A DNA stretch of 64,000 nt from Holtermannia corniformis (Eukaryota; Basidiomycota; Tremellomycetes; Holtermanniales), in contig BCIJ01000028.1 of NCBI GenBank assembly GCA_001599935.1, positions 39,965 through 103,964 of the forward strand, written 5' to 3'. Every line of letters begins with the position of its first letter. Within the stretch, counting starts at the first letter, position 1. The translations under genes were made by a program, and so were the position numbers. The notes under the pieces were generated by a model that searched no databases, was not told the origin of the DNA, and was given only the letters and a program-made list of their open reading frames with translations. Positions 50,143 through 55,022 of this stretch are shown one piece after another.

Positions 50143-50150
50143 GAGCCACC
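50143..50150. repeat. hAT target-site duplication, left (GAGCCACC)
   Basis: The 8-bp sequence directly left of the transposon is identical to 55015-55022. Eight bp is the duplication length of the hAT superfamily. Confidence 0.88.
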
Positions 50151-50175
50151 CAAAAAAATCAGCGCGGATATCCTT
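50151..50175 (+). repeat. hAT terminal inverted repeat, left
   Basis: The repeat begins CAAAAAAATCAG and continues CGCGGATATCCTT. It pairs with the reverse complement of 54990-55014 with four mismatches, all at positions 8-11. Confidence 0.85.
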
Positions 50176-50313
50176 GATTTGAGCTGCCGTAAGAAAAACG
50201 GGTGTATATCCCTGTTTATCCGCGCGCTGACCCTCGCCAAGGAAACAAGGATCTGCACGTGAGTGGCAAGGATCAAAACGCGGATACAAGATCAGCAAGC
50301 AAGGATATCCGCA

Positions 50314-50858
50314 NNNNNNNNNNNNNNNNNNNNNNNNNNNNNNNNNNNNNNNNNNNNNNNNNNNNNNNNNNNNNNNNNNNNNNNNNNNNNNNNNNNNNNN
50401 NNNNNNNNNNNNNNNNNNNNNNNNNNNNNNNNNNNNNNNNNNNNNNNNNNNNNNNNNNNNNNNNNNNNNNNNNNNNNNNNNNNNNNNNNNNNNNNNNNNN
50501 NNNNNNNNNNNNNNNNNNNNNNNNNNNNNNNNNNNNNNNNNNNNNNNNNNNNNNNNNNNNNNNNNNNNNNNNNNNNNNNNNNNNNNNNNNNNNNNNNNNN
50601 NNNNNNNNNNNNNNNNNNNNNNNNNNNNNNNNNNNNNNNNNNNNNNNNNNNNNNNNNNNNNNNNNNNNNNNNNNNNNNNNNNNNNNNNNNNNNNNNNNNN
50701 NNNNNNNNNNNNNNNNNNNNNNNNNNNNNNNNNNNNNNNNNNNNNNNNNNNNNNNNNNNNNNNNNNNNNNNNNNNNNNNNNNNNNNNNNNNNNNNNNNNN
50801 NNNNNNNNNNNNNNNNNNNNNNNNNNNNNNNNNNNNNNNNNNNNNNNNNNNNNNNNNN
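50314..50858. other. assembly gap (545 N)
   Basis: A run of N starts immediately after a GGATATCCGCA motif inside the hAT 5' region. The transposase 5' exon or exons and leader may lie here. Confidence 0.98.
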
Positions 50859-50893
50859 CTTCTCAGCCGCACGCCAGTCCCAAGCTAAAGACA

Positions 50894-53800
50894 ATGGGAG
50901 AACGTAAGCTGCATCGCGGATACGCCTAATCACGATCCTGACGAGCTTGTAGTGCACCGCGAACGCCTTCGAGCTCAGGGTAAGGGATCGCCTGGCAAGA
51001 AGAACCCTCGAACACCCGCCAAACCGCCCGCGCCGTCAACCAGAACGTCCCCGCGATGGGCATCTTGTAAGTGCGGATCCGCGGATATCCGCGGATATCC
51101 GTGGATGGTGCGATCCTTTCGCTAATATCTACTCAGCATCGCAGCCAAACCCTCCCGCCCCTCGCGTTCCACGTCCATCTACACCAGTGGCGCCGTCCCC
51201 ATTAAAGCGCACCCGGGCTGAAGCCCAACCAGAGGGCGAGGACGAGCTCGAGGCTGAACCGCCAGCTCAGCGGACGCGAACAAAGACAGGCGATGTCCCT
51301 GCCAGGCCACCGGCACCCAAAAAGCCATCGCCAAAGCCTCGCACACCTCGAAAGACGCCGGGCAAAGCCAAAAACCCTGATCCCAAGGGCAAAGGCAGGG
51401 CTACAAGTCCCTCGCCGCCGCCGAGCCCGTCTCCGGCNGCCGACAAGTCCAAGAGCAGTACTAGCGGCTCGTGGGTCTANACNGCGCGCAATTGGCCGGG
51501 CAAGANTGCAGCGCTTGATNGGCTCATCAAGACGCAGGCGAAGTCCAAGAGCCCGTCTTGGTTGACGATGTTTCCCGCTGAGTTGCTCTCCGACGAGCAG
51601 GCCAAGCACGCTGGACGTGTAGTGGANCCCTCGCTGCCTGAATGGGACCGTACATGGGTGCAAGTGGCTTGCCGGTGAGTAGAATGATGATTCGAGGATC
51701 CGCGGATATCCGCGGATATCCGCGGGTCCTCGAATCATTCTAGCTTTGATGAAGGCTCATACAGTTCAGGAATTGCCCCGCAATCATCATTCGGCACATC
51801 ACCGAGGGCATGTCTGGCGGCCAGGTCCGAAAGCACTTCGACAGGTGCAAGGGCAGGGCTATCGACGCCGACGGTGCTCAAGTCGTCCCCACCGACCGTC
51901 CGCGTTCGATGAACCGCTCCCAACTCCTCTTTATCCTCATTACAAGCTTCGCCAAGCACAACAGGCCTTTTAATCTTGTCAAAGACGATTGCGTGAGTCT
52001 TCACATGATCGGTCCACCGCGGATCGGCGCGGATCGGCACGGATACTGATGTAGTTTCAGATCCAACAACTTATAATGTCCATCAGCCCCCTCATTCCTC
52101 GTCCGCCCTCCCCCGCGAGCCTGTCTGCGTTGACAGTCGAGTTTTTCCACTTCATTCGACCCATCGTGATGGCCAAGATCCGCGAGCAGGTCAATCGTGG
52201 CCTGCACTTGGCCGTCGATGGCTGGACGTCGGGGAACCATGCCAGCTTCGTCGGAGTGGTCGCCAGCTGGGTGCATCGCGAGCCTGGCAAGTCTGTCATC
52301 GAGTCGGCAGTCACCGACTTCATCTAGTGGGTGATATGCACGCTCTTGAACGCCGCTGACGTGCTCTGCAGTGATGACTCGGCTCATACGGGCGACCGAC
52401 TGGCGGAATTGGTGTACGAGTCCCTCAAAGAGGCNAACTTGAAAGATCACGTGAGCAAGGATCATCACGGATTCCGCGGATATCCCTGATCCCTGGTTTA
52501 GCTTTTCACGTTTGTGGGCGACAATCACTCAGTCAACGGCAAGCTTTGCCAACGTCTCGGCGGCATGGGACTTCCCATGTTCAAGGGCAAAACACATCGG
52601 GTGCGGTGCTTTGCTCATACGCTCAATCTCGTCGTCAAAGTCAGTATCCGCGAGATCCGCGAATCATACCTTACTCATCAAACATTGCGCAGGCCTTCCT
52701 CACGCCCTTTACGTCCAAAGCCGATATGGCGGAACTGCAGGCGATGGCTGTTGAAGGCTCTCGGCTCTCTGCCGGCGAGTCTGAGCCAACAACTGAGGAG
52801 ATCTTGCATCTCCGCGACGCGTATTCCGCCCAGGCGGCTGAGATGACTGCTGCCGAGCGCCAGCAGCTCGAAGACGACGCGCCTGACGAGGTCGAGGCCA
52901 TGGAAGAGCTCAAAACTGCGGCATCGTGGGAACAGGCGCGACTTGATCACCAAGCGATCATNCCCGTTTTGCAGAACCATGATATCTCGGTCGGCAATTA
53001 CCACGTCCTGCCATCATGGGACCTNCTCTTCGACAGNTTGAAGGACTCCGAGCTGCATGCAGCTCGCAGGTTGATCCTGAAGGTAAGTGCGGATACAAGG
53101 ATCCGCGGATATCCGCGGATCCTTTNGGATCCTTGATCGGCTTTTGATGACTGACGCTTCTTCAAGGCTCGTGTACTGGCCAAGACAATGGCGCTGGGTC
53201 CCAGGTATCGCAAGGCCTGGTTCGAGGCTATCGAGGCCTGCATAGCGACCAAGAAAGTGGACAGCTCGATCGGATCACGCCTCATCAAGCGTGATGTCAT
53301 CACGCGATGGAACTCGACGGGCGAGATGCTGCAAGACTGCCTGCATTTCCGCCTTGTCATGTAAGTCTGCGCGCGCAAGCTTACATTATGGCTCATATAC
53401 GCAGCGAGCACTTCTACGCGATGCCGTTGGTTGCGTCGCTCGAGGGCAAATCGCTCTTCACCGATGCCATCCGCTTGACCGACCTCGACTTCACGATCCT
53501 GGAGCACCTGGCGCCCACGCTCGCAGTGAGTCACAGCGAGGATATTCAAGGATATCGCGGATATCCTTGGATCCGTGGATATCCTTTTGGTCTTCGCTGA
53601 CTTTGACTTGCATTAGTTTTGCACGGAACTCGTCGACATCTTCCAGTCAGCCGCCGGCACGCTCACGATGCGAGCGTCGGTCGCCACGGTCGTTCCCTGG
53701 ATTGATCAGTTCTCGGGTCATTTCGCCGCAATCGCTCAAGCCAATGGCCATCCGACTTCGATACGCATTGGCGCTCGCATGGCACTGCTCACTCTGAACA

Positions 53801-54734
53801 AGTACTATGCGAAGACCGACAAATCCGTGCTGTATCGCGTCGCCATGCGTGAGTTTCTCAAAATAAGCCGTAAATGATCTTTCAGGCTGACATGATGCAG
53901 TGCTGCACCCGTCTCTGCGCATGGCTTACCTGGAGAAGCAAGAGTGGGAGACAGAGTGGAAAGACGGGGCTGTCCGCGCACTCCGGGACTTGTACGAGCT
54001 TTACCGACCGGCTGCGCCCGTCCCGCAGTCACAGGCAAGATCCACCGCCAAGGTTCGTCCACATGACTAGCCTGATTGTTACGTGCTGCGCTGACTAAGA
54101 TCTCTCCCTTCCAAACATCAAACAAACCCACAAACGGCGTATCCGCTCAAATCCCTGCATATCCGCGCATATCCGCGCGTATCCGCGTGTATCCGCGGAT
54201 ATCCTCGATTTCCGCGGTCGATTTCTACCCCAGGTCCCAACACTGCTCAAGCCGCCTCAAGCAGCGGGAACCAGTGACCCTCTACTCGATCCCGTGTCTG
54301 CCTGGATCCATGGCGAGTGTGTCTCGGTCGAAGGGACGTCGTTGGTCGACCCCATCGAGTGGTGGACGCGCGAGGCTCCCGAAGGGTCGCTCTGGCACCG
54401 AAACGGCATGGCACAGCTGGCTCTGGACGTCTTGTCGGCTCCAGGTGTGTTTCTCGCCGTCTGCAGCCGTCTGCAGCCGTCTCTGACATCTGCAGCGACC
54501 TCTGTCGAACCCGAACGGGCATTCTCGATGGGCGGCTTGACCGTCTCGTACCGCCGCCACAGGCTCAAGCGCGAGACGATTCGAGCCCTCATGTGTCTGG
54601 GCTCGTGGTCGAAGAAGGGCTTGCTGTCAGAGGACGACTGGCACAAGTTCGAGGCTCAGCGACAGCGGACACGGTCGATCAGCCAAGCGACGGTGTCTGG
54701 GAGTATCAGGGCAGAATCTCCAGAGCCTGAGTGN
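50894..54734 (+). CDS. hAT transposase with BED-like N-terminus and C-terminal hAT dimerisation domain
   Basis: This enzyme would cut and rejoin the hAT element. The model has about 14 exons. A Pro/Lys/Arg-rich N-terminus is followed by a BED/zinc-finger-like RNCPAIIIRH...GGQVRKHFDRCKG. The RNase H-like core has HLAVDGWTSGNHASFVGVVA (first Asp), LFTFVGDNHSVNGKLCQRLG (second Asp), THRVRCFAHTLNLVVK (CxxH) and RDVITRWNSTGEML (RW). A helical insertion (EEILHLRDAYSAQAAEM...) sits between. The C-terminus has SAPATSVEPERAFSMGGLTV with the catalytic Glu in the PERAFS context and hAT dimerisation motif. The stop is probably TGN 54732-54734 read as TGA. All 13 introns keep phase, so the gene may be intact. 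Some exons may lie in the gap. Confidence 0.88.
51067..51136 (+). repeat. transposase intron made of the palindromic motif (intron 2 of the model)
   Basis: The 70-nt intron begins GTAAGT and at once runs into GCGGATCCGCGGATATCC and GCGGATATCCGTGG, then ends CTACTCAG. Removing it joins WAS to SQPNPP in frame. Confidence 0.8.
51675..51769 (+). repeat. transposase intron with a long perfect-type hairpin (intron 3)
   Basis: The 95-nt intron GTGAGT...TTCAG contains, at 51680-51743, two arms of about 32 nt (AGAATGATGATTCGAGGATC... and ...GGTCCTCGAATCATTCT) that are reverse complements apart from a 3-nt insertion and one mismatch. The centre is GGATATCCGCGGATATCC. Splicing gives VACR joined to NCPAIIIRH in frame. 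Confidence 0.8.
52451..52501 (+). repeat. transposase intron with the palindromic motif (intron 6)
   Basis: The 51-nt intron GTGAGCAAGGATC...GGTTTAG contains ATTCCGCGGATATCCCTGAT, flanked by GGATCA and TGATCC half-sites. It joins NLKDH to LFTFVGDN. Confidence 0.75.
53083..53166 (+). repeat. transposase intron with the palindromic motif (intron 8)
   Basis: The 84-nt intron GTAAGTGCGGATAC...TTCAAG contains AAGGATCCGCGGATATCC and GCGGATCCTT, forming an inverted repeat with GGATCCTTG next to it. It joins RLILK to ARVLAKTM. Confidence 0.78.
53527..53616 (+). repeat. transposase intron with the palindromic motif (intron 10)
   Basis: The 90-nt intron GTGAGTCAC...GCATTAG contains CAAGGATATCGCGGATATCC and CTTGGATCCGTGGATATCC. 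It joins LAPTLA to FCTELVDIF. Confidence 0.78.
54053..54233 (+). repeat. transposase intron with a tandem array of the motif (intron 12)
   Basis: The 181-nt intron contains, at about 54139-54212, a run with a period of about 10 nt: CATATCCGCG, CATATCCGCG, CGTATCCGCG, TGTATCCGCG, GATATCCTCG. It joins RSTAK to VPTLLKPP. A shorter alternative intron at its 5' end cannot be excluded. Confidence 0.65.
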
Positions 54735-54834
54735 GTGGATGGACGTGTAGTTGTATGCATAAACTACTGTATCCATTGCAGCGGCAGAGCTTTAGTCAGA
54801 CGCAAGTTGTTNCTGCTCGGGTCNAAATCAGNNN

Positions 54835-55014
54835 NCAAGGATNCGCGGANNCNAGGATATCCGCGCNTATCCTTGNATCCTTNGANGNGCGGAAGGGATA
54901 TCCGCGACNCATGATCCTTGAGGATGCGGATACGGATAAGGATGTCTGTGCAGAGCGAGGATATCCCTCTCGAGGATAAGGATGCTCGAAAGGATATCCG
55001 CGCCACATTTTTTG
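54835..55014. repeat. hAT 3' subterminal motif array and right inverted repeat
   Basis: After the transposase stop, at least seven GGATAT/ATATCC/GCGGAT motif copies in both directions lead up to the right terminal inverted repeat (54990-55014). Several N positions fall inside the motifs, as expected if copies differ. Confidence 0.82.
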
Positions 55015-55022
55015 GAGCCACC
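55015..55022. repeat. hAT target-site duplication, right (GAGCCACC)
   Basis: The 8-bp sequence directly right of the transposon is identical to 50143-50150. Confidence 0.88.

Follow-up and report, generated by a model that had tools for sequence, protein, structure and literature searches.

The DNA analysed here, referred to as the window, is a 64-kb stretch of the Holtermannia corniformis genome, and it contains a transposon of the hAT superfamily, which we call family A, together with its transposase gene (Table 1). The terminal repeats of the window element run into GCGCGGATATCC. Terminal inverted repeats of hAT elements begin with CA, and those of family A (starting CAAAAAA) and of a second family in the genome, family C (starting CAAAGATG), are short and have CA at the tip. 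The 8-bp target site duplications likewise fit a hAT element, both in the window (GAGCCACC) and in family C (GTCTAGAC), as well as in a complete family A copy on contig C10 (TGCGGATT, read by eye).

The transposase gene was predicted in the initial annotation to have 13 introns whose removal joins the conserved blocks in frame, and this is borne out by the spliced frame, which encodes 968 amino acids and is open up to its last codon, which reads TGN. Its product contains, at the C-terminus, the Pfam hAT dimerisation domain PF05699 (E 1.7e-12), a domain that is matched in three of the four members of our transposase alignment, and the Hermes chains were matched, at an E value of about 1e-11, by a profile in which three relatives were included, reflecting C-terminal homology. 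Other hallmarks of hAT transposases are an RNase H-like catalytic core and, towards the N-terminus, a BED-type zinc finger. Conserved blocks in the alignment include DGWTSPNH and DNAS; a C-x2-C ... H pattern is also visible, and Pfam zf-BED has no match at E 0.1 in the four members. Beyond this genome, two protein searches with about 8000 scored candidates each gave 1 and 31 matches, and 12 of the 21 organism-named matches in the second search are basidiomycetes, among them the six best named. No relative was found in the viral contigs searched. The H. corniformis genome itself was searched as 20.2 Mb in 55 contigs, in which parts of several element copies read N.

Table 1. Features of the family A element in the window (positions are those of the window).
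Feature	Position	Strand	Description
hAT transposon, family A	50151..55014	+	4864 bp; terminal inverted repeats CAAAAAAATCAGCGCGGATATCC (left) and CAAAAAATGTGGCGCGGATATCC (right, reverse complement)
Left target site duplication	50143..50150		8 bp, GAGCCACC
Right target site duplication	55015..55022		8 bp, GAGCCACC; identical to left
Left terminal and subterminal region	50151..50313		GGATATCC at 50166 and 50303; runs on into N stretch
Right subterminal array and terminal inverted repeat	54830..55014		four GGATATCC
Transposase gene	50894..54734	+	13 introns in readable part; open frame once spliced; PF05699; 5' end incomplete in window
Intron 1	50904..50952	+	weak motif (GCGGAT)
Intron 2	51067..51136	+	strong motif array
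Intron 3	51675..51769	+	strong motif array inside inverted repeat
Intron 4	51993..52060	+	weaker; variant unit CGCGGATCGG in tandem
Intron 5	52327..52371	+	no motif unit
Intron 6	52451..52501	+	strong motif
Intron 7	52640..52692	+	weak motif (ATCCGCGAGATCCGCG)
Intron 8	53083..53166	+	strong motif; 24-bp core common to family B
Intron 9	53361..53404	+	no motif
Intron 10	53526..53616	+	strong motif
Intron 11	53849..53900	+	no motif
Intron 12	54053..54233	+	longest array, 10-bp period
Intron 13	54445..54495	+	no motif; non-motif 10-bp tandem unit

The introns of family A and the distribution of the end unit

Nine of the 13 introns in the window contain the GCGGAT or ATCCGC units that are present in the element ends. 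The grading of the introns in the initial annotation, with strong copies of the motif in introns 2, 3, 6, 8, 10 and 12, weaker ones in 1, 4 and 7, and none in 5, 9, 11 and 13, was confirmed; in two introns a border is moved by one base (52327-52371 and 53526-53616). The complete C10 copy has one additional motif-free 5' intron, located where the window reads N, and the family A gene thus has at least 14 introns, GCGGAT or ATCCGC being present in 9 of the 14. The same introns are found in the other family A copies (C10, C13, C39, C3 and C4) wherever sequence is available.

The array units, written here as GGATATCCGCGG for family A and TTTACGGG for family C, usually repeat with a period of 10 bp in the former and 8 bp in the latter. 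Among the family A copies, introns 2 (60/70), 4 (68/78), 12 (171/181) and 13 (41/51) each occur in lengths exactly 10 bp apart, with a further difference of 16 in intron 8 and of 1 in intron 1. The arrays therefore gain and lose length mostly in whole-unit steps. The tandem unit of intron 13 is not the motif, which indicates that unit duplication also occurs without it.

Within the window, GGATATCC is present at 15 sites, compared with a mean of 0.34 in shuffled sequence, and all 15 lie inside the element: nine in introns, two in the left end and four in the right end. It is absent from 2907 nt of family A exon and from the 59110 nt of the window beyond the element, so that the original observation of a motif confined to the element holds. 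Near both of its ends, each of the A and C elements has a short repeated unit, with a total of seven GGATATCC in A (counting the left end in the C10 copy and the right end in the window) and 20 copies of TTACGGG in C, as is characteristic of subterminal arrays. The earlier claim that one and the same motif builds the introns and the ends can be retained for the unit GCGGATATCC / GGATATCCGCG but not for the perfect 18-mer GGATATCCGCGGATATCC: the 18-mer occurs at four places in the genome, always within intron 2 or intron 3 of a family A copy, and the ends have only the unit in common with it. Genome-wide, GGATATCCGCG has 85 matches on both strands as opposed to four for the reversed control. 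By our sorting, 79 of the 85 are in or within 50 bp of element-matched stretches or in short array-bearing stretches, and the remaining six are lone sites at six places; no motif arrays outside such elements were seen among the outlying GGATATCCGCG sites examined.

Short gene-less derivatives of these elements keep the end arrays. Four of the five examined (C12, C24, C15 and C43) are flanked by identical 8-bp sequences, and those flanking the fifth (C21) are not identical. Three short derivatives of family C carry 18-19 copies of TTACGGG each, none of them farther than about 175 bp from a tip. Gene-less derivatives with identical flanks indicate that mobility does not depend on the intronic sites, and it is more likely that such sites would regulate, restrain or compete.

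Comparison of families A to F

Family B, on contig C8, is about 70% identical to family A at the DNA level and shares its unit, which is present in introns 1, 2, 8, 10 and 12 and absent from 0, 9, 11 and 13 (5/9); the split into loaded and unloaded introns is therefore the same in A and B for all nine that can be compared. The 24-bp core of intron 8, GGATCCGCGGATATCCGCGGATCC, is identical between the two. Global alignment of the motif introns gives A-B identities of 0.91 for introns 2 and 8, 0.83 for intron 1, 0.78 for intron 10 and 0.77 for intron 12, and that of the motif-free introns 0.71-0.77 for 9, 11 and 13 and 0.98 for intron 0, so that conservation of the array sequences is suggestive but uneven across introns.

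The comparison that weighs most is that with family C. This family is known from a single full-length copy of 4641 bp (C33), and its transposase is 38% identical to that of family A over 880 aligned positions. The readable gene has 14 introns (intron 1 is 54 nt) and one stop-free frame of 1063 codons, and ten intron positions are common to A and C with identical column and phase. Ten of the 14 introns contain TACGGG or CCCGTA, and the tandem unit, TTACGGG, is the end repeat of family C itself. It occurs 27 times in the introns (802 nt), 20 times in the ends (366 nt) and not at all in 3191 nt of exons, with six occurrences in 59 kb of host sequence, and it is absent from family A introns and ends. 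Conversely, GGATATCC is absent from family C introns, ends and exons; at the level of whole introns, the C unit is in none of those of A or B and the A unit in none of those of C. The tandem word TACGGGNTTACGGG has 17 places in the genome, 15 of which fall within the introns of the single complete family C gene, and the control has none.

The same relationship is seen when introns are scored for coverage by 7-mers taken from element ends. Own-end coverage is 0.46 for the A introns (0.17 in shuffles) and 0.47 for the C introns (0.46 with an earlier border of intron 1, versus 0.17 in shuffles); of the motif-free A intron 5, 20 of 45 nt are covered. Coverage of A introns by C-end 7-mers is 0.07 (shuffle 0.12), that of C introns by A-end 7-mers is 0.21 (0.22 with the earlier border, versus a shuffle mean of 0.14 and maximum of 0.22), and that of A introns by 7-mers of the D and of the E ends, two further families described below, is 0.28 (shuffle 0.13). 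K-mer coverage, exact words and intron counts each show the intron unit following the end unit in A, B and C. The motifs thus differ together with the ends: the introns of A and of C each match the ends of their own family but not those of the other. Agreement between A and C as to which introns are loaded has a P value of 0.015 without the weak intron 1 and 0.095 with it, and shared occupancy is not a robust proof of descent.

The transposases of families D (C3) and E/F (C34 and C22) are more distant, with 26-28% identity to that of A. With A, family D shares nine intron positions and E/F eight, identical in column and phase and all motif-free in these families. Neither the A unit nor the C unit is present in any of the 23 D, E and F introns examined (39-58 nt each; one further D intron, found in the alignment, was left out of these counts), which by Fisher's test differs from A with P 1.6e-5 and from C with P 2.9e-6; the background rate in random host stretches of 50-70 nt is 1.5-2.5%. 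When 7-mers are taken from the end regions of these families themselves, they cover the D, E and F introns to about the extent seen in shuffles (0.11, 0.15 and 0.08 versus 0.10, 0.10 and 0.08); for D, whose tip was not located, a 220-bp stretch downstream of the gene served as the end region. A chance origin of the motif pattern in A and C is rejected by the shuffles, the reversed control, the tandem-word control and the random host stretches.

The intron positions and phases shared with motif-free families show that the introns are older than the motifs. The introns are ancestral, and the arrays would most simply have been added in the lineage of A, B and C; the freedom of the D and E/F introns from both units indicates that the arrangement is not general.

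Possible roles and origins of the intronic arrays

Subterminal repeats are viewed as signals of the element ends. The presence in A, B and C introns of the unit of their own ends lends indirect support to the second alternative raised in the initial annotation, namely that these are putative extra binding sites for the transposase, and we consider it probable, with some reservation, that the A and C arrays are additional sites of the subterminal type that co-evolve with the transposase. In the course of events that we propose, an ancestor of A, B and C would have picked up the unit within introns that were already old and short, where the gene body can accommodate it; the intronic arrays would have expanded as whole units were duplicated in tandem; and as the DNA specificity of the transposase drifted, ends and intronic arrays would have changed together, because the same protein would read both. 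Least certain is the role of the arrays. Transposase bound along the gene body might damp its own expression or mobility, or, alternatively, full-length copies might recruit transposase better than short derivatives that consist only of ends. We put forward, tentatively and with less than even confidence, a selfish cis-acting platform, in which ancient introns have been turned into arrays of the element's own binding sites that are rewritten at each change in transposase specificity, such that the autonomous copy may gain control over itself or an advantage over the short parasites that lack introns.

Several characterized transposons offer partial parallels. The Ac transposase binds AAACGG repeats, and maize Ac/Ds, like the elements described here, is a hAT system with many short transposase-binding repeats in its ends (PMC3260210), binding being putative in the present case; for Ac/Ds, the description places these repeats in the terminal ~200 bp (PMC3260210), whereas here homologous introns carry them too, with family-specific sequence. 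Hermes, whose transposase has C-terminal homology to that of family A, binds subterminal repeats through its BED domains (PMC10368747), and the Herves transposase binds a subterminal motif (PMC3143072), so that both likewise read short subterminal repeats, but the main text of these two papers makes no mention of introns (PMC10368747, PMC3143072), unlike the intronic arrays seen here. A precedent for restraint is provided by piggyBat, which is held back by an internal transposase-binding site (PMC11707139), much as an extra internal site is postulated here on the basis of sequence, although piggyBat belongs to another superfamily and its site is in the left end and not in introns (PMC11707139). 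In the open-access literature, at the level of titles and the beginnings of abstracts, and among the matches listed, no earlier description was found of transposase introns loaded with the element's own end repeats.

The main rival explanation, which we judge unlikely although it is the strongest of the alternatives, is that the arrays are debris from the ends without a role: repair following excision would copy end repeats into the body of the element by template switching, exons would purge them, introns would tolerate them and slippage would add units. Consistent with this are the zero count in exons, the dispensability of the intronic arrays for mobility, and the one-unit length changes between copies, which extend even to the non-motif unit of intron 13. 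A intron 3 and C intron 12 also have palindromic arms, flanked by non-motif sequence, that resemble snap-back copying (read by eye), and between A and B the array introns 10 and 12 are only about as similar as motif-free ones, with motif-free intron 0 the most similar of all. However, the units in the introns are variants that have been homogenised locally, and the ends lack the perfect A 18-mer, so that there is no sign of recent copying from them. Passive spread also sits poorly with the loading of the same five introns, and not of the same four, in A and B, with the closer alignment of motif introns 2 and 8 than of motif-free introns 9, 11 and 13, and with the absence of either unit from the 23 introns of D and E/F.

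Other explanations are far less probable than additional binding sites. A very improbable one is that the units, both of which contain CpG, are targets for methylation and silencing, or sites at which bound transposase keeps the gene body unmethylated; several array differences among the family A copies are changes of CG to CA or TG (by eye), but methylation by itself gives no account of why the units match the ends of each family. More improbable still is that the arrays act on RNA, either as splicing signals or as foldback structures that aid intron splicing. As foldback would have it, inverted repeats are seen among the introns, in intron 3 of A and intron 12 of C (read by eye), but among the ten loaded C introns the unit is sense-only in four, antisense-only in four and mixed in two, so that the RNA sequence differs from intron to intron. 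The occurrence of family C arrays in both orientations points to DNA and not RNA, and fits double-stranded DNA sites. In addition, the unit is missing from five A and four C introns in the gene models, and a role in RNA leaves the match to the ends unexplained.

Least probable of all is the proposal in the initial annotation that the introns originated, in the manner of introners, when terminal-type sequence inserted. Despite the unit common to introns and ends, this proposal is rejected, since the same columns and phases are occupied in C with another motif and in the motif-free families D and E/F, the latter being the outcome that the annotation itself had named as speaking against it; in addition, the outlying sites examined showed no arrays in host genes. 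Introners do resemble the present case in placing transposon-type sequence within introns (PMC9860276), but differ in that here the introns predate the sequence, and the arrays are seen only in the element's own gene. Nested insertion of short elements was also rejected as a source of the arrays, there being no CAAAAAA-type terminal repeat in the intronic arrays (by eye).

If additional binding sites have been kept through many introns, and have changed with the transposase, then the introns of this transposon would be its own regulatory DNA. Under the cis-acting platform, if true, introns and ends would constitute one co-evolving code that is readable from sequence. Families A and C would then represent natural matched pairs of transposase and site with which the evolution of hAT DNA-binding specificity may be tested, and the same pairs would also allow tests of how autonomous elements cope with their short derivatives.

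Intron phase and the end unit in family A

In the readable family A gene of the window, the GCGGAT/ATCCGC unit is present in all six phase-0 introns (introns 4, 6, 7, 8, 10, and 12) and in two of the seven introns of other phases, a difference (P 0.016) that comes from a post hoc comparison in which intron 1, with its weak motif, is left out. Inverted-repeat introns are present in both family A and the related hAT family C.

Loci and introns of the hAT families and other repeats
Feature	Location	Description
Family A intron 3	window 51675-51769	inverted repeat; arms reach past motif into unrelated sequence
Family C intron 12	L065:3390-3490	inverted repeat; arms reach past motif into unrelated sequence
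Complete family A copy	L036, C10:186127-191232	LTR-like insertion within right subterminal array
Short derivatives with family-type ends	L083, L084, L085, L064, L081	431-489 bp
Additional relative	L069, C23 near 283400	last exon 61% identical to family C
TACGGG-rich repeat	L073, C4 near 42534	different tip; read by eye
TACGGG-rich repeat	L074, C10 near 69714	different tip; read by eye

Additional copies and a third end unit

The 8-bp flanks are identical in four of the five short derivatives, which are gene-less elements that keep the end arrays. The LTR-like insertion in the family A copy on contig C10 has TGTCAAGAGTG at its start and ATCATGACA at its end.

The relative on contig C23 has ACGGATCCGTAA as its end unit, a third one besides those of families A and C, and this unit is found again at identical spacing close to the end of contig C34 (near 179046). 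The sole visible intron of the C23 relative is without ACGGATCCGTAA, and the contig stops before the remaining introns.

TACGGG-like units in other repeats

Because the repeats on C4 and C10 are TACGGG-rich but differ at the tip, their sequences suggest that a unit similar to that of family C is also carried by elements possibly of a different type.
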